Assembly: GCA_014360495.1 (NCBI GenBank)
Contig: JACIXR010000005.1
Coordinates: 88,516-152,515 of the forward strand
DNA length: 64,000 bases
Direction of reading: 5' to 3'
Origin: a bacterium
Lineage (GTDB): Bacteria; Armatimonadota; JACIXR01
In this document: piece after piece, positions 1 through 60,984 of the stretch
How the letters are laid out: the number at the start of each line of letters is the position of its first letter
Numbering within the stretch: position 1 is the stretch's first letter
Notes under the pieces: generated by a model
What the model was told of the DNA's origin: nothing
Database searches by the model: none
The model's input: the letters and a program-made list of their open reading frames with translations, nothing else
Made by a program: the position numbers and the translations under genes

Positions 1-348
1 GGAAATCTTCTTGCTTATATCAATTGGGTGGAAAATGCCGAGGGACGCTTTGTAGGAATATAGCTCTCCAATTGTGATTTGAGTGGGTGGCATATTGGGA
101 ATAAAGGAAGGCATTGTTATCGTTGTCTTTTTATCTATGCGGAGGGCGGAGGCACTCAGGGAAGAGAAAATCTTCTTGCCTGCTTTCGCCATCTCCCAAT
201 TGCTTCTCGCACTCAGCAATTTTTCCTCGGCAACTTTTATCTGCTTATTGTTCTGCAAAGCTATTTTAACTGCCTCATCCAAGGTTAAGGGATTGGGAAT
301 AGTAGCGAGGTATGATAAAATCAGGAAAAGTTTCTTCCATCTTTTCAC
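1..348 (-). CDS. TolC-family outer-membrane efflux protein, N-terminal fragment cut by window edge
   Basis: The frame starts at a GTG at 348 and stays open to base 1, so only the first 116 codons are present. A short basic and hydrophobic N-terminus (RWKKLFLILSYL) is a signal peptide. It is followed by LTLDEAVKIALQNN and a helix with EEKLLSAR, the usual opening of the outer-membrane efflux protein (OEP/TolC) repeat. TolC-like trimers form the outer-membrane channel of tripartite exporters. The GTG overlaps the TGA stop of the AbrB-like gene (GTGA), and an AAGGAG lies 11 nt upstream, so the two are co-translated. An RND permease diverges from this operon. The membrane-fusion subunit is not in the window and may lie further left. 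Confidence 0.85.
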   Translation of the reverse strand, partial: MKRWKKLFLILSYLATIPNPLTLDEAVKIALQNNKQIKVAEEKLLSARSNWEMAKAGKKIFSSLSASALRIDKKTTITMPSFIPNMPPTQITIGELYSYKASLGIFHPIDISKKIS

Positions 349-587
349 TTTTCCATCAGCTCCTTCAACATCTGGGTCAAGCGATGCAATTCATTTAAAG
401 CGGATGGAAGGATTAGAAAAATCCCGGTGTTCAGCGGGTTTACGAAAACCAGCATTTTATCCCCTGTCTTTAAACCCAGCCTTTGTCTTGCCTCCGCTGG
501 GATTACGATTTGTCCCCTTTCTCCTACGGAGACGGAACCTATAAAACATTTCCGAATGACCTCATTGCTGTTTTTGAAAACCTCCAA
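345..587 (-). CDS. SpoVT/AbrB-type DNA-binding transcriptional regulator
   Basis: An 80-residue protein. After a roughly 18-residue lead it shows the AbrB swapped-hairpin signature: VGERGQIVIPAEAR, then LGLKTGDKM and an LVFV strand, covering about residues 19-50. This dimeric fold binds DNA. The C-terminal 25 residues form a helix (LNELHRLTQMLKELMEK) that could mediate oligomerisation. The start is TTG at 587, with AAAGGAG about 10 nt upstream; no ATG in frame fits. It is the first gene of the leftward operon with tolC and faces a perfect inverted repeat in the shared divergent promoter. It is therefore the obvious candidate regulator of both the channel and the RND pump (inference). Confidence 0.85.
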   Translation of the reverse strand: MEVFKNSNEVIRKCFIGSVSVGERGQIVIPAEARQRLGLKTGDKMLVFVNPLNTGIFLILPSALNELHRLTQMLKELMEK

Positions 588-625: not shown

Positions 626-653
626 ATTCTATCGTACATTTCAGATAAGTCAA
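626..653 (-). promoter_or_regulatory. Leftward sigma-70 promoter for abrB-like/tolC operon
   Basis: On the minus strand, TTGACT (653-648), 16 nt, then TAGAAT (631-626). The -35 box lies inside the left arm of the inverted repeat at 646-672 and mirrors the rightward promoter. Confidence 0.6.
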
Positions 654-672
654 ATTATTCCTATTTGACTTA
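646..672. promoter_or_regulatory. Perfect inverted repeat, probable operator of the divergent efflux promoters
   Basis: TAAGTCAAAT (646-655), a 7-nt spacer, then ATTTGACTTA (663-672): ten perfectly matched bases per arm. Each arm contains one outward-facing -35 hexamer, so a dimeric repressor bound here would block both promoters at once. The AbrB-like protein encoded next door is the likely ligand; that is inference. Confidence 0.65.
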
Positions 673-692
673 CCCTTCATCTTTACTATAAT
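665..692 (+). promoter_or_regulatory. Rightward sigma-70 promoter for RND permease gene
   Basis: TTGACT (665-670), 16 nt, TATAAT (687-692). The gene's GAGGTGA ribosome binding site is at 700-706 and its ATG at 715, giving a leader of about 15 nt. Confidence 0.75.
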
Positions 693-714: not shown

Positions 715-3700
715 ATGAATCTCTACGAGTTCAGCGTTAAGCGACCCATCACGATATTGATGGTTATAATCGCCGTCTTTCTTTTGGGTTTCGTTTCCCT
801 CTCCCGCCTCAAAATAGACCTCCTCCCGGATATAACCCTTCCTGTTGTTACGGTGACAACGGTTTATCCCGGAGCGGGACCCGAGGAAGTTGAAACTCTC
901 ATCACCAAGCCATTGGAGGAAGCTGTGGGCACTGTCAAAAACCTTGACGAAATTTCCTCTTACTCAATGGAAGGTGTCTCAAATATAATGGTTCGCTTTA
1001 AATGGGGGACGGATATAGACCTCGGAGCTATAGATGTGAAGGAAAAGATAGACCCCGTGATAGATATGCTTCCTGAGGAAGCTCATCGCCCAGTTATCAG
1101 CAAGCTTGATATTTCAGCTATGATGCCCGTTGTGGGAATCGCTATCACCGGAACTGACCTCAAGACCCTGAGAGATTTAGCCGATAATGTCATCAAAAGG
1201 GATTTGGAAAAGGTTACGGGAGTTGCGATGGCAGCTGCTATGGGTGGATTGGAGAGGGAAATAAGGGTGGAAGTTAATCCAAGCAGGTTGAAGGCTTATG
1301 GAATAGCTATTGAACAGGTTACACAAGCTATTTCAGCGGAGAATAGAAATCTTCCCACCGGCTATCTTAGGGGTCCAAAGAACGAGTATCTTGTGAGGGT
1401 TGTAGGGCAGATATCAAATCCCCAGGAATTGGGCAACATAACCTTGACGATAAAGAACGGTGCACCCATTCTCTTGAAGGATGTAGCGGAGATAAAGGAT
1501 ACAACGAAAGAGCCGACGAGCTACTCAAGGGTAAACGGGAAGCCGGCCGTGGTTATCATGGTTTTTAAACAGTCAGGAGCAAACACAGTAGATGTATCCG
1601 ATAGAGTGCAAAAGGCTATGAAGGAAATTCAAAGGCAGCTTCCGCCAAATGTTTCTATGACATTAGTGATGGACCAGGCGGATTATATAAGGAAATCCAT
1701 TAAGAATTTGGAGGATGTGGCTCTGGAAGGAGCTATATTAGCGGTTATCATCATTTTCCTCTTCCTCACCACTTTGAGTAGCACCTTTGTAATAGCTCTA
1801 TCCATTCCCATATCTCTTTTCGTCGCTTTCATTTACATGTTTTTCAGCAAGACGACTTTAAACATAGTGACTATGGGTGGATTGGTCATCGCTATTGGAA
1901 GGATTATAGATGACTCCATAGTTGCTCTGGAGAACATTCATAGGCATATAGAGATGGGCGAACCGCCGATGAAGGCTGCGGTGGAAGCGATGAAGGAAGT
2001 AGCTATGCCCATCCTTGCCGCCACCTTCACCACTATAGCTGCTTTCTTCCCCATCCTTTTTGTAGGAGGAATGACCCAACAGCTCTTCTCCCCAATGGTT
2101 CTTGTTTTCTCCGTAGCCCTCCTTACCTCGATGCTTGTCGCTTTCTTCGCTGTTCCGATGTTCTCCTCTCGCATTCTCCGCCCGATTTCCGAGGAAAAGG
2201 GAAATGGTATACTCTATAAAGTGGTTAACGCATTTCAAACCGCTTATAGAGCTGTAGAGGATATCTATAAAGGAATGTTGGCTTGGGTATTGAGGCACAG
2301 GCTAGCTACTATAGGGATTGGAGTTGGTAGCTTTGTCTTGAGCTTTTTCCTCATACCCATCATTGGTCTTGAATATATTCCTGCCTTGAGCAATGTAATC
2401 AGCATAAGTGTGAGGACACCAGTGGGGACAAGGTTGGAAGAGACGGATAAAGCGATTGCGGAGGCAGAAAAATATATGGCTCAGGTGCCCGACTTCATTA
2501 CTTATACCGCCTACTGCGGAGGTGGAGGTAGAGGGGCTTTTGCCCTTATGGGGACTGCTAACCCAAGCCAGTCGGGAAGGATTATGGGTAGATTGAAGCC
2601 GTTTAGGGAGTTAAAACAGCCGGTAAATGTCACGAAGGAATGGCTTAGAGAAAAGCTTCAGAGGATACCTAACGCAACATTTAGTTTTGTGGAAATGGAA
2701 GCCGCTCTATTAGGTGGAAGAGGGGGGATGGCTGACATTGATGTGGAGATAAGGGGAGATGATTTAGACACGCTGGCTCAATTAGCCAATGATTTGAAGG
2801 AGAGGATGAAGAAAATCCCCGGTGTTTTCGGCGTTGACTTGAGCTGGACAACTGGAGCGCCCGAATATCAGGTAATCATAGATAGGGAAAAGGCGAAGAC
2901 ATTTGGGATAACCGCTGGTCAAATAGGGTCTGCACTCTACACTCTTCTTGGTGGTCAGCAGGTGACTTATTATAGAGAAAAGGGGAAGGAGTATGATATA
3001 ACCGTTCAGGCTCCCGCTTCTCAAAGGGAATGGGAAGCAACGTTGAGGCGTATGCCAATCTTTTCTCCTGTCACAAAATCAACAATCCCTTTGGAGATGG
3101 TTGCGAAAGTAGAGCTTAAAACAGGTCCCTCTCTCATAACTCGCAGGCAGCTTCGCCGTTCAGTTGATGTAACAGCTTCAAAGGGCAATAGACCCCTCGG
3201 TGATATAGTGAGAGATATCCAAAGAGAGCTTAACCAAATGAAGTTTCCACCTGGTTATATCACGGCGATAAGGGGTGCGGAAGAAAGCAGAAGGGAGGCA
3301 TTCAGTGGTCTCTTCATAGCCTTGGTCGCCGCTATCTTTCTCATCTATATCATTCTCGCATCCCAATTTGAATCCCTTGTCCATCCTCTCGTGGTGATGA
3401 CGGCGATTCCAATGGCATTGATTGGTGCTCTCCTTGGGCTTCTTATAGGAGGGCAGACGTTGAGCGTCCTTTCTATGCTCGGGATATTGATGTTGGTCGG
3501 TATAGTGATAAGCAACTCGGTTTTGTTGGTTCAATTTATAAATCTTCAGAAGGAGCGAGGGTTGGAGACAAACGAGGCGATAATGGTGGCAGGACCCATA
3601 AGGTTGCGTCCCATTTTAATGACAGCTTTGGGCACGATTTTCGCTATGATACCGATGGCTTTGGCGATTAGGGAAGGTTCCGAGATGTTCAAGCCGTTGG

Positions 3701-3816
3701 CGATTGCGGTTTTGGGTGGATTGATAACATCAACATTCCTCACTCTTCTCTTCGTTCCCGCCATATACAGTTTGCTTGATGAATTCTCAAGGAGAAGAAA
3801 GAAGGCTCAAAGATAA
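715..3816 (+). CDS. RND-family multidrug/solute efflux permease (HAE1/AcrB-SwrC type)
   Basis: A 1033-residue inner-membrane proton antiporter, full length for the family. TM1 is at about 12-31 (ITILMVIIAVFLLG). A periplasmic loop with TVYPGAGPEEVE follows, then the TM2-7 bundle, a second periplasmic loop and TM8-12. The TM4 proton-relay pair is present as Asp399-Asp400 (GRIIDDSIVALENI). The TM10 position that is Lys940 in AcrB is Asn934 here (VISNSVLLV), as in Gram-positive SwrC-like members, so the relay differs from AcrB. ATG at 715 has GAGGTGA 8 nt upstream. It diverges from abrB-tolC and ends at a strong terminator. No adaptor (HlyD-like) gene is adjacent. The substrate is unknown. Confidence 0.93.
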   Translation: MNLYEFSVKRPITILMVIIAVFLLGFVSLSRLKIDLLPDITLPVVTVTTVYPGAGPEEVETLITKPLEEAVGTVKNLDEISSYSMEGVSNIMVRFKWGTDIDLGAIDVKEKIDPVIDMLPEEAHRPVISKLDISAMMPVVGIAITGTDLKTLRDLADNVIKRDLEKVTGVAMAAAMGGLEREIRVEVNPSRLKAYGIAIEQVTQAISAENRNLPTGYLRGPKNEYLVRVVGQISNPQELGNITLTIKNGAPILLKDVAEIKDTTKEPTSYSRVNGKPAVVIMVFKQSGANTVDVSDRVQKAMKEIQRQLPPNVSMTLVMDQADYIRKSIKNLEDVALEGAILAVIIIFLFLTTLSSTFVIALSIPISLFVAFIYMFFSKTTLNIVTMGGLVIAIGRIIDDSIVALENIHRHIEMGEPPMKAAVEAMKEVAMPILAATFTTIAAFFPILFVGGMTQQLFSPMVLVFSVALLTSMLVAFFAVPMFSSRILRPISEEKGNGILYKVVNAFQTAYRAVEDIYKGMLAWVLRHRLATIGIGVGSFVLSFFLIPIIGLEYIPALSNVISISVRTPVGTRLEETDKAIAEAEKYMAQVPDFITYTAYCGGGGRGAFALMGTANPSQSGRIMGRLKPFRELKQPVNVTKEWLREKLQRIPNATFSFVEMEAALLGGRGGMADIDVEIRGDDLDTLAQLANDLKERMKKIPGVFGVDLSWTTGAPEYQVIIDREKAKTFGITAGQIGSALYTLLGGQQVTYYREKGKEYDITVQAPASQREWEATLRRMPIFSPVTKSTIPLEMVAKVELKTGPSLITRRQLRRSVDVTASKGNRPLGDIVRDIQRELNQMKFPPGYITAIRGAEESRREAFSGLFIALVAAIFLIYIILASQFESLVHPLVVMTAIPMALIGALLGLLIGGQTLSVLSMLGILMLVGIVISNSVLLVQFINLQKERGLETNEAIMVAGPIRLRPILMTALGTIFAMIPMALAIREGSEMFKPLAIAVLGGLITSTFLTLLFVPAIYSLLDEFSRRRKKAQR

Positions 3817-3822
3817 TTAATA

Positions 3823-3857
3823 AGCGGGGGCACGATACCGTGCCCCCGCTATTTTTT
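3823..3857 (+). terminator. Rho-independent terminator after the RND gene
   Basis: A perfect 12-bp stem (3823-3834 with 3839-3850), a 4-nt ATAC loop, then ATTTTTTA. It starts 6 nt after the stop codon. It also sits 9 nt past the stop of the convergent NifX-domain gene and may serve both, although the reverse tail is poorer in U. Confidence 0.92.
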
Positions 3858-5576: not shown

Positions 5577-5667
5577 TGGCGGAGGGGGTGGGATTCGAAC
5601 CCACGAGGAGCTTTTCACTCCTAGCGGTTTTCAAGACCGCCTCCTTCAACCACTCGGACACCCCTCC
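5577..5667 (-). tRNA. tRNA-Ser (anticodon TGA)
   Basis: A class II tRNA of 91 nt with an encoded CCA (5579-5577). The acceptor stem GGAGGGG (5667-5661) pairs perfectly with CCCCTCC (5587-5581). The anticodon loop reads CTTGAAA with anticodon TGA. A long variable arm (TAGGAGTGAAAAGCTCCT) is followed by the GTTCGAATC T loop. It lies 25 nt downstream of the radical SAM gene. A minus-strand TATAAT at 5681-5676 could give it its own start. Confidence 0.97.
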
Positions 5668-5692
5668 AATATATTATTATAACTTCCTTTTC

Positions 5693-7396: not shown

Positions 7397-8977
7397 TTAA
7401 AACTCCACTACCCAAGCTTTTTCAATTCCCTCTATCTTCTCTATTTCCCGCAAGACATCCTGAGGAATGCTCTCATCAACACTAAGCACCATTACGGCTT
7501 TTCCTCTCTTCTCCTCCCTGCCAACATTCATTCCCGCTATGTTTATGTCGTTTTTGCCCAAAATCGTTCCCACCTTTCCTATGATTCCCGGCTTGTCAAT
7601 GTGGGAGGTGAGGAGGATTATTCCTTCTGGAACGAAATCAACTCTATATCCATCTATATTGACTATGCGTGGCTCGCCCTTCCCTATAACCGTTCCGCCG
7701 ACCTTCCTAACCTCATTATCACCATATATAGTTGCCGTAGCAAGGTTGGTGTATTCCGAGGGGGTCGTGCTTTTCGTCTCAAGGACGCTTATCCCTCTGC
7801 TCTCCGCGATAATGGGGGCGTTTACTAAATTCACAGGGAGGGAAAGGACGGGTTCCAGTATTCCCTTCAATAGGGAGCGGGTAAGGGGGCTTGTTTCCAC
7901 CTCCCCTATCTCTCCTTGATATGAAACCTCTATTTTGCTAATCCTTTTGCCTCCGATGGCAGCTAAAAGCCTCCCCATTTTCTCCATTAGTGGGATATAG
8001 GGTTGAATGAAGGAAAGAACCTCAGCTGGGAGAACGGGAAGGTTAACCGGGCTGGATGGAGGTATGCCTTTGAAGAAATTGACGATTTGCTCGGCGACAT
8101 CAACCGCTACATACTCCTGCGCTTCCACTGTTGAGGCACCGAGATGGGGAGTTACTATCACCTGGTCAAGTTTTAATAGCGGGTGGTCGGGTGGCGGCGG
8201 CTCCTGTTCAAACACATCTATTGCGGCGCCTCCTATTATCCCTTCCTCTATCGCCTTTACAAGGGACATCTCATCAATTATTCCTCCTCTTGCCGTGTTT
8301 ATCAACTTCGCGCCCCTCTTCATCATCCTTAATTCTTCCTCACCGATGAGATGTTTTGTTTCCTTGGTAAGGGGTGTATGAACTGTGACTACATCGGCGG
8401 TTTCGAGCAAAGTCGGTAGGTCAACGAGGCGAATATTCATTCTCTCAGCAACTTCATCCGATATGTAAGGGTCATAGGCGATCACTTCCATTCCCAATCC
8501 CTGCGCCCTTCTCGCAACTTCCCTTCCTATCCTTCCCAGACCGATTATCCCAAGCTTTTTCCCGAACACCTCCATACCCATAAACTTACTTCTTTTCCAT
8601 TCCCCTTGTTTGAGCGACATATGAGCTTGAGGGATGTTCCTCGCTAAAGCCAGGAGGAGGGCAATAGTGTGTTCAGCTGCTGCCCTTGTATTCCCTCCCG
8701 GGGAATTGACGACGACAATGCCTCTCCGAGTCGCAGTTTCAACATCTATATTATCAACCCCTACCCCTGCTCGCCCTATTATCTTCAAATTAACCCCCGC
8801 TTCAATTATCTCCCTAGTGACTTTCGTCCCGCTCCTCACCATCATAGCATCATATTGAGGAATCCTTGCGATAATCTCCTCCTTGGAGAGCCCTGGAAGA
8901 TAATCAACCTCCATCTCCTGGCGAAGTATTTCCAAGCCCTTCTCGGAAATCTGGTCTGACACAAGTATTTTCGGCAA
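7397..8977 (-). CDS. serA: D-3-phosphoglycerate dehydrogenase, long type with ACT domain
   Basis: A 526-residue enzyme that oxidises 3-phosphoglycerate to 3-phosphohydroxypyruvate with NAD, the first step of serine synthesis. The substrate/NAD domains fill about 1-310, with the Rossmann motif GIIGLGRIGREVA (about 143-155), ARGGIIDE (catalytic Arg), the Glu in EQEPPPPDHPL and the catalytic His in TPHLGAST. An intervening ASB-type domain (about 320-450) carries the conserved NLVNAP segment. A C-terminal ACT domain (about 453-526, DKPGIIGKVGTILG, NVGRE) is the usual serine feedback site. It starts one base after the aminotransferase gene ends, a tight pathway pair. Confidence 0.96.
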   Translation of the reverse strand: MPKILVSDQISEKGLEILRQEMEVDYLPGLSKEEIIARIPQYDAMMVRSGTKVTREIIEAGVNLKIIGRAGVGVDNIDVETATRRGIVVVNSPGGNTRAAAEHTIALLLALARNIPQAHMSLKQGEWKRSKFMGMEVFGKKLGIIGLGRIGREVARRAQGLGMEVIAYDPYISDEVAERMNIRLVDLPTLLETADVVTVHTPLTKETKHLIGEEELRMMKRGAKLINTARGGIIDEMSLVKAIEEGIIGGAAIDVFEQEPPPPDHPLLKLDQVIVTPHLGASTVEAQEYVAVDVAEQIVNFFKGIPPSSPVNLPVLPAEVLSFIQPYIPLMEKMGRLLAAIGGKRISKIEVSYQGEIGEVETSPLTRSLLKGILEPVLSLPVNLVNAPIIAESRGISVLETKSTTPSEYTNLATATIYGDNEVRKVGGTVIGKGEPRIVNIDGYRVDFVPEGIILLTSHIDKPGIIGKVGTILGKNDINIAGMNVGREEKRGKAVMVLSVDESIPQDVLREIEKIEGIEKAWVVEF

Positions 8978-8978
8978 T

Positions 8979-10127
8979 TCATTGCACCTCCCTTGCTATA
9001 AATTCCTCCGCTTCCTTAACTGCTTTCCCTAATTCCAGTGGATAACCCATCATCTTCAAGCCCATTTCCAGAGCAGATAGCGCGACCAGAGCATCTATCA
9101 CATCAACGTAGCCGAGATGTCCAATGCGGAAAATTGTGTTTTGAATTGCTCCTTGCCCTCCCGCTAAGACGACGCCAAATTTCGTTCTTAAAAGGGAGCG
9201 GAGTTTTCTTACATCTATGCCCTCTGGATTATATATAGCTGAAACAGTATTGGAGGCATATTTCTCGTCTCCAAAAAGCTTCAAACCCATCGCTTTCACC
9301 CCTCTTCTTATCGTTTCCCCCACGAGCTGATGTCTCCTTTGAACGTTTTCCAAACCTTCCTCCAATATCTGTCTCAGCGCCTCTCTGAGGGCGAAAAGTT
9401 GGGGCAATGCAGGAGTATAGGGAGTTTGGTTTCGTTCCATTGATTTGAGCATAGATTTTACATCAAAATAAAAGCGAGGCATTCGGGCACTCTCAGCCTT
9501 CTCCAAGGCTCTTTGGCTGACGCAGAGGAAGGAGAGTCCAGGAGGTATCATAAAAGCTTTCTGGGAGCCTCCAACTACTACATCAATACCCAATTCATCT
9601 GTCGGTAAATCAATTGCCACAAGTGAGCTTATAGAGTCAACAATCCAGAGGATTTCCCTATCTCCTATAGCTTCTTTTATCTCTTTGAGGTTGTTGGTAA
9701 CGCCCGTTGATGTTTCATTATGAGTCATTAAGAGAGCTTTTGCATCGGGATTCTCGTCAAGGCATTCCTTTAATCTATCCGGGTCAATCGCTTTCCCCCA
9801 CTCAAAATCCAATTTAACTACTTTCGCTCCAAAGGCTTTCGCAATAGATGCAAACCTATCTCCGAATACGCCTATGCTGGCACAAATCACCTTATCCCCG
9901 GGAGATAGAAAATTCACCACAGCTGCTTCCATTCCTCCAGTGCCAGCCGAAGGGAAGACGATAACCGGATTGGAGGTCTTGAAAACCCTCTTGAGGTTCT
10001 CTATAATCTCGCTTTGTAAAGCCTCGTACTCCGGTCCCCTATGATTTATCATTGGGCTGGATAAAACCTTTTGGACCTCCGGCGTTATGGGAGTGGGACC
10101 GGGTATGAACAGTCTCATCTTAATCAA
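8979..10127 (-). CDS. Class V aminotransferase (serine-pyruvate/alanine-glyoxylate type, likely serving serine synthesis)
   Basis: A 382-residue PLP enzyme. It opens with FIPGPTPITPEV and INHRGPEY, typical of the alanine-glyoxylate/serine-pyruvate branch. It has the SAGTGGMEA phosphate loop (60-68), THNETSTG (135-142), the PLP-ring Asp in WIVDSISS, and the Schiff-base Lys190 in GGSQKAFMIPPG. Directly upstream of serA, it probably transaminates phosphohydroxypyruvate or makes glycine/serine; no classical serC is seen in the window. The TTG at 10127 is preferred over the ATG at 10118, because AAGGAGG lies 9 nt before the TTG but 18 nt before the ATG. Confidence 0.87.
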   Translation of the reverse strand: MIKMRLFIPGPTPITPEVQKVLSSPMINHRGPEYEALQSEIIENLKRVFKTSNPVIVFPSAGTGGMEAAVVNFLSPGDKVICASIGVFGDRFASIAKAFGAKVVKLDFEWGKAIDPDRLKECLDENPDAKALLMTHNETSTGVTNNLKEIKEAIGDREILWIVDSISSLVAIDLPTDELGIDVVVGGSQKAFMIPPGLSFLCVSQRALEKAESARMPRFYFDVKSMLKSMERNQTPYTPALPQLFALREALRQILEEGLENVQRRHQLVGETIRRGVKAMGLKLFGDEKYASNTVSAIYNPEGIDVRKLRSLLRTKFGVVLAGGQGAIQNTIFRIGHLGYVDVIDALVALSALEMGLKMMGYPLELGKAVKEAEEFIAREVQ

Positions 10128-60642: not shown

Positions 60643-60984
60643 TTAGCCAGGCGGCCACGACATATGGCGTCCCGCAAGGAGATGTAGATGGAGGTGGGCT
60701 ATTGCCTGCCCGCCAGCGCTTCCCGTGTTTATCACTACCCTGTAGCCGTCATCCAGATGGAATTTCTTCGCTAATTCCTTCACTGCGAAAAGCAACTTGC
60801 CGAGAAGATTCAAATCCCCTTCCTCTGCTTCATCCAAACTCGCCATATGCTTCTTCGGTACTATCAAAATGTGAAACGGTGCCTGCGGGTTGAGGTCGTG
60901 AAAAGCGACGAGCTCCTCCGTCTCCATCACTTTTTTGGATTCAACCTCTCCCCTGGCTATCATACAAAACACACATCGCTCCAT
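60643..60984 (-). CDS. HIT-family nucleotide hydrolase
   Basis: A 113-residue histidine-triad protein: AFHDLNPQAPFHILIVPKKH, INTGSAGGQAIAHLHLHLLAGR with the HxHxHxx active site (HLHLHLL, about 97-103). Hydrolyses nucleotide phosphoramidates or similar. CVFCMI near the N-terminus may bind zinc. Starts inside the end of mtaB (44-nt overlap), with AAAGGAGG upstream. Confidence 0.95.
   Translation of the reverse strand: MERCVFCMIARGEVESKKVMETEELVAFHDLNPQAPFHILIVPKKHMASLDEAEEGDLNLLGKLLFAVKELAKKFHLDDGYRVVINTGSAGGQAIAHLHLHLLAGRHMSWPPG

Follow-up and report, generated by a model that had tools for sequence, protein, structure and literature searches.

The 127 bp intergenic region between the divergent genes for an AbrB-like protein and an RND permease contains a row of three in-phase 9 bp direct repeats, and it is most likely this row, rather than a palindrome in the same region, that the AbrB-type protein binds. 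The overall explanation that we prefer, and which we hold to be probable, is that this protein is a local autorepressor that acts on the repeat array and controls both halves of a split efflux pump. The promoters, the divergent split of the pump genes, the conservation of the repeat and the association of regulator, repeat and exporter are established by sequence comparison.

The window, the complete 64,000-nucleotide stretch analysed here, covers positions 88516–152515 of contig 5 of a 2.55-Mb draft genome, which the names of related genomes place in the phylum Armatimonadota. The AbrB-like regulator (345–587, minus strand) consists of 80 amino acids and has a TTG start, with an SD sequence AAGGAGA at 603–597. 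It passes the curated cut-off of TIGR01439 (looped-hinge helix domain; 42.8 bits, cut-off 28.3), for which it is the sole match in a profile search of the genome, and it also matches the MazE model PF04014 (35.1 bits, cut-off 24.7). Past the DNA-binding domain there is only a short C-terminal extension. The gene overlaps by 4 bp with that of a TolC/OEP outer-membrane channel of 435 amino acids (PF02321; 1–348, minus strand), which runs on to the left of the window (8557–9864 of locus L029). The gene for the MFP adaptor (TIGR01730; 7064–8560 of L029, minus strand) lies 3′ of the TolC/OEP gene and overlaps it. The three genes form a minus-strand operon in which neighbours overlap by about 4 bp and which leaves the window on the left. 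On the plus strand, the RND permease gene (715–3816; SD GAGGTG at 701–706) encodes an AcrB/MdtB-type protein of 1033 amino acids that matches PF00873 (ACR_tran) with 877.8 bits, and a strong 12 bp stem directly 3′ of it (3823–3850) is terminator-like in both directions. Permease, MFP and OEP are thus encoded together, as in a tripartite RND efflux system, and since the two divergent units carry all three components, together they encode one tripartite pump. Further downstream, a tRNA-like sequence was spotted by eye at 5580–5670 on the minus strand.

Each of the two units has its own predicted σ70-type promoter. The leftward promoter of abrB–tolC–mfp (626–653, minus strand) consists of a −35 box TTGACT at 653–648, a 16 nt spacer and a −10 box TAGAAT at 631–626 and agrees with the consensus in ten of 12 positions. 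The rightward promoter of the RND gene (665–692, plus strand) has its −35 box TTGACT at 665–670 and, again after 16 nt, a −10 box TATAAT at 687–692 (11 of 12 matches). An earlier note on this DNA had described exactly these mirror-image, outward-facing promoters, and its coordinates are exact. As each promoter possesses its own −35 and −10, they are two separate promoters rather than a bidirectional promoter with shared elements. The divergent gene order is common to the window species and two other species of the genus (G001 and G002). The 16 nt spacer is constant in six of six promoters of these three genus members and the gap between the two −35 boxes is 11 bp in all three; judged by this conservation, both promoters are real. 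In the whole genome TTGACT-N16–18-TATAAT occurs as an exact match 28 times and the same arrangement with TTGACA 20 times, a comparison that covers only these two exact forms, each with TATAAT. The sequence reads TTGACTT in 19 of the 28 sites, and TTGACT(T) is an ordinary −35 box of this genome.

Upstream of AbrB genes in related loci a direct repeat, (TCATACAWW)n, is present, the consensus of which was obtained from a Gibbs search. Its period is exactly 9 bp (z = 14.8 for 26 loci, z = 17.5 for 85 TolC/MFP-linked loci and z = 13.3 for 27 other loci), and lags other than multiples of 9 are near zero except for a weaker lag of 12 in the 27 other loci. A leave-one-out matrix reaches at least 12 bits in 59 of the 85 TolC/MFP-linked upstream regions versus three of 419 control windows; a clear match is absent from the remaining 26. 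The repeat mostly overlaps the predicted transcription start and is found in both orientations (25:33), which makes it a candidate operator at the DNA level. Action at the RNA level was rejected in view of the two orientations and of the position of the repeat upstream of the start site in the genus of the window. A genome-wide search for a regulon using a loose pair of TCATACAWW units with three mismatches gave 35 matches versus 11 for the reversed control and was too noisy to be used.

In the window the candidate AbrB operator (632–658, plus strand) is made up of the units TCGTACATT (632–640), TCAGATAAG (641–649) and TCAAATTAT (650–658), which score 7.1, 5.7 and 3.8, respectively, the best matrix match being 630–651 with 16.6 bits. 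The units are degenerate in this genus, the region is AT-rich and the comparison comprises three genomes, in all of which the best 9 bp phase is identical and three in-phase units are present. When the genus is excluded from the matrix, each member still has one strong match, at the homologous place (16.6, 17.6 and 17.1 bits), and these scores are reached by one of 500, none of 500 and none of 500 shuffles. The three units span the leftward −35/−10 spacer as well as the leftward −35 box. Their right-hand end is 6 bp short of the rightward −35 box, towards which a weak fourth unit (1.8 bits) extends in the window species. Across the three genus members, 67% of the columns are invariant in the left spacer block (630–647) versus 25% in the right spacer (671–686), which otherwise seems free to vary, as expected of a bare promoter. 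Because the candidate repeat sits on the leftward promoter and merely adjoins the rightward one, the gate is probably asymmetric. Within the window as a whole the operator matrix scores highest at 60958–60979 (19.2 bits). This match lies within the beginning of a HIT-like coding region and is probably due to chance.

The gene order in relatives ties the regulator to the complete pump. Among the 63 deduplicated relative loci with enough sequence, AbrB, TolC, MFP and RND genes are collinear on one strand in 58, the RND gene is divergent in three, all from the genus of the window, and the remaining two have TolC alone. In the genus of the window, the genes of the tripartite pump are thus divided between two divergent units. 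In most of the Armatimonadota loci examined the pump operon begins with the AbrB-like gene. This position, and its being the only TIGR01439 protein found in the genome, bear out the suggestion of the earlier note that the AbrB-like protein is the likely regulator of the pump; the link is well supported by the comparison, although through DNA other than the palindrome. In loci L034, L098 and L107 about 2.5 kb of additional sequence lies between the TolC and MFP genes of an otherwise conserved operon. In L037, L040, L042, L052 and L055 the RND match comes in two shifted pieces, which suggests that a central segment of the permease has been inserted or has diverged strongly.

In the mechanism that we propose, the 80-residue protein would regulate its own operon locally, most likely as a repressor, by binding the short array of TCATACAWW units, here at 632–658. 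Bound there, it would directly block transcription of abrB–tolC–mfp and would hinder RNA polymerase at the adjacent RND promoter. With both promoters under its control, all three pump parts would rise and fall together. Repression is favoured over activation because the sites overlie core promoters and start points. What we infer is that the protein binds, that it represses, that it also acts on the RND promoter and that an inducing signal exists. Compared with other families, in which the operator lies at the start point, it would have shifted to the promoter core beside the second promoter, and such a shift would fit a regulator that kept hold of both halves after the operon had split. Given the short C-terminal extension, the protein may respond through a partner or may simply set the expression level by autoregulation.

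Control of the RND promoter is the weakest step of this mechanism, as the three units leave the right-hand −35 box uncovered. The best-scoring part of the array overlaps the leftward promoter only, the right spacer is unconserved (0.25) and near-consensus hexamers could be strong unaided, all of which would be in line with a constitutive divergent pair in which both the dyad and the RND promoter are free of any regulator and AbrB governs the leftward operon alone. We nevertheless consider such a pair unlikely. In the collinear operons of the relatives one AbrB-headed transcript would take in the RND gene, and in the window the array stops just 6 bp from the rightward −35 box, with its weak fourth unit pointing there.

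The earlier note had placed the operator in the palindrome itself, such that one symmetric dimer of AbrB (or of another protein) would lie over both −35 boxes and shut them off equally. The palindrome (646–672) is indeed as described: its arms, TAAGTCAAAT at 646–655 and ATTTGACTTA at 663–672, are perfect reverse complements separated by a 7 bp loop, and among 5000 shuffles of the 127 bp intergenic region only 24 contain any perfect 10 bp inverted repeat whose loop is about 3–15 long. A dimer on this dyad would account for equal gating of the two promoters, and some symmetry is kept in the relatives: outside the −35 hexamers, five of eight dyad pairs are retained versus 2.4 expected (P about 0.056, three genus genomes), with one compensatory change from A–T to G–C. 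However, the perfection of the palindrome is, on this comparison, specific to the window species. Despite the same gene order only seven of ten pairs (L030) and eight of ten pairs (L031) remain in the two close relatives, an outcome that the note had named beforehand as speaking against its proposal, and it is the 9 bp direct repeat that is conserved instead. The arms also hold the common TTGACTT of this genome, the centres of the half-sites are 17 bp apart, and AbrB relatives across phyla accompany the direct repeat. A scan of the 2.55-Mb genome for the full palindrome with up to three mismatches returned the palindrome alone and no second copy, and it was set aside as a regulon motif. A palindromic operator is therefore distinctly unlikely in our assessment, although the partly kept dyad may have some role. 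Since the palindrome decays in relatives and TTGACT(T) is an ordinary −35 box, its symmetry would mostly reflect two normal outward-facing −35 boxes; in the repeat-based mechanism it would be largely a by-product of these boxes standing back to back.

Very unlikely is a main control through competition of the two promoters for RNA polymerase (mutual exclusion) instead of through AbrB: the −35 boxes are only 11 bp apart and competition is documented for the bidirectional acrA/acrR promoter of Escherichia coli (PMC12825309), but there the −10 is shared whereas here the −10 boxes are separate and face away from each other, the basal activity reported for five of five promoters tested did not suffice for competition (PMC12825309), and the conserved repeat would be left unexplained.

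The candidate operator is also found with homologs of the regulator that do not adjoin TolC, many of them from Bacillota, Actinobacteria and archaeal bins. These were fetched by the peptide motif VG[ED]RGQ[VI]VI and form a biased sample in which the bin names of some contigs may be wrong; 22 of 27, none of them used in training, carry the same repeat with at least 12 bits. Many head ABC-exporter operons. In loci L113, L119, L134, L137, L140, L147 and L158 (Bacillota-type bins) the operon encodes paired ABC exporter half-transporters and most have the 9 bp repeat, while DrrAB-like pairs follow in L160, L162, L166 and L105 and a MacB-like pair in L163. In L153 and L168 the AbrB homolog heads a UbiB/AarF-type (ABC1) kinase gene, and on contig 48 of G247 (1081–1719; L084) a tandem AbrB pair of this subfamily precedes an ABC ATPase gene. 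In the phylum, six further genes of the AbrB family, some with a PIN-like downstream gene, were checked and are without the 9 bp repeat. The repeat thus appears to track the AbrB regulator rather than the pump.

On balance, and with somewhat less confidence than in the local mechanism, we favour the view that these proteins constitute a new subfamily of AbrB-fold autoregulators (VG[ED]RGQ[VI]VIP) that controls exporters in several phyla (RND in Armatimonadota; ABC in Bacillota, Actinobacteria and some archaeal bins) via a shared tandem operator of 9 bp period; when the pump operon of one genus split, this operator would have shifted away from the start site to the core of a divergent promoter pair. 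If so, a small AbrB-type protein would be a standing regulator of RND pumps in much of the phylum and would add a class of drug-export regulators, the same 9 bp operator would also precede ABC exporters elsewhere, and this branch of the AbrB fold would gain a clear, testable DNA code. The genus of the window would then represent a natural experiment in operator retention through an operon split. Known efflux-pump regulators are mostly TetR, MarR, MerR or two-component proteins. In the open-licence literature we found no report of the present arrangement, in agreement with the earlier note, which had called it undescribed, nor of the 9 bp operator or of any member of the AbrB family that specifically regulates RND or ABC exporters, which is weak evidence for novelty.

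Several known systems resemble parts of this locus. The PF04014 match is shared with MazE antitoxins, yet the neighbour of abrB is the overlapping TolC/OEP gene and a MazF-type toxin gene is not present beside it. MraZ is an AbrB-fold regulator of the dcw operon and belongs, with the window protein, to the swapped-hairpin superfamily. It regulates its own expression and recognises short direct repeats, which in Mollicutes read AAAGTG[T/G] (PMC8475190); autoregulation through direct repeats is also predicted here for the AbrB-like protein. The target genes and the unit sequence differ, and the Pfam/NCBIfam matches of the window protein include AbrB/MazE models and no MraZ family, in the context of a pump instead of dcw. 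The profile matches of the protein in the PDB include SpoVT and AbrB and place it in the same DNA-binding domain family as these Bacillus regulators. Bacillus AbrB, however, is presented in one account as a global regulator whose recognition sites differ greatly and whose recognition is called elusive (PMC4022651), whereas the window protein appears to be local and to have a defined 9 bp repeat. Divergent promoters and local repressors next to RND pumps are familiar. In the acrR/acrAB system of E. coli, AcrR works at a bidirectional promoter with a shared −10 (PMC12825309). Both systems would have divergent promoters within one short region, next to an RND pump, and a local repressor of its own gene that acts both ways, here as proposed. 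They differ in that AcrR belongs to the TetR family and its promoters have a −10 in common. In the window, by contrast, the regulator is of the AbrB type, the −35 boxes stand back to back, pump parts lie on both sides and the candidate operator is a 9 bp direct repeat.
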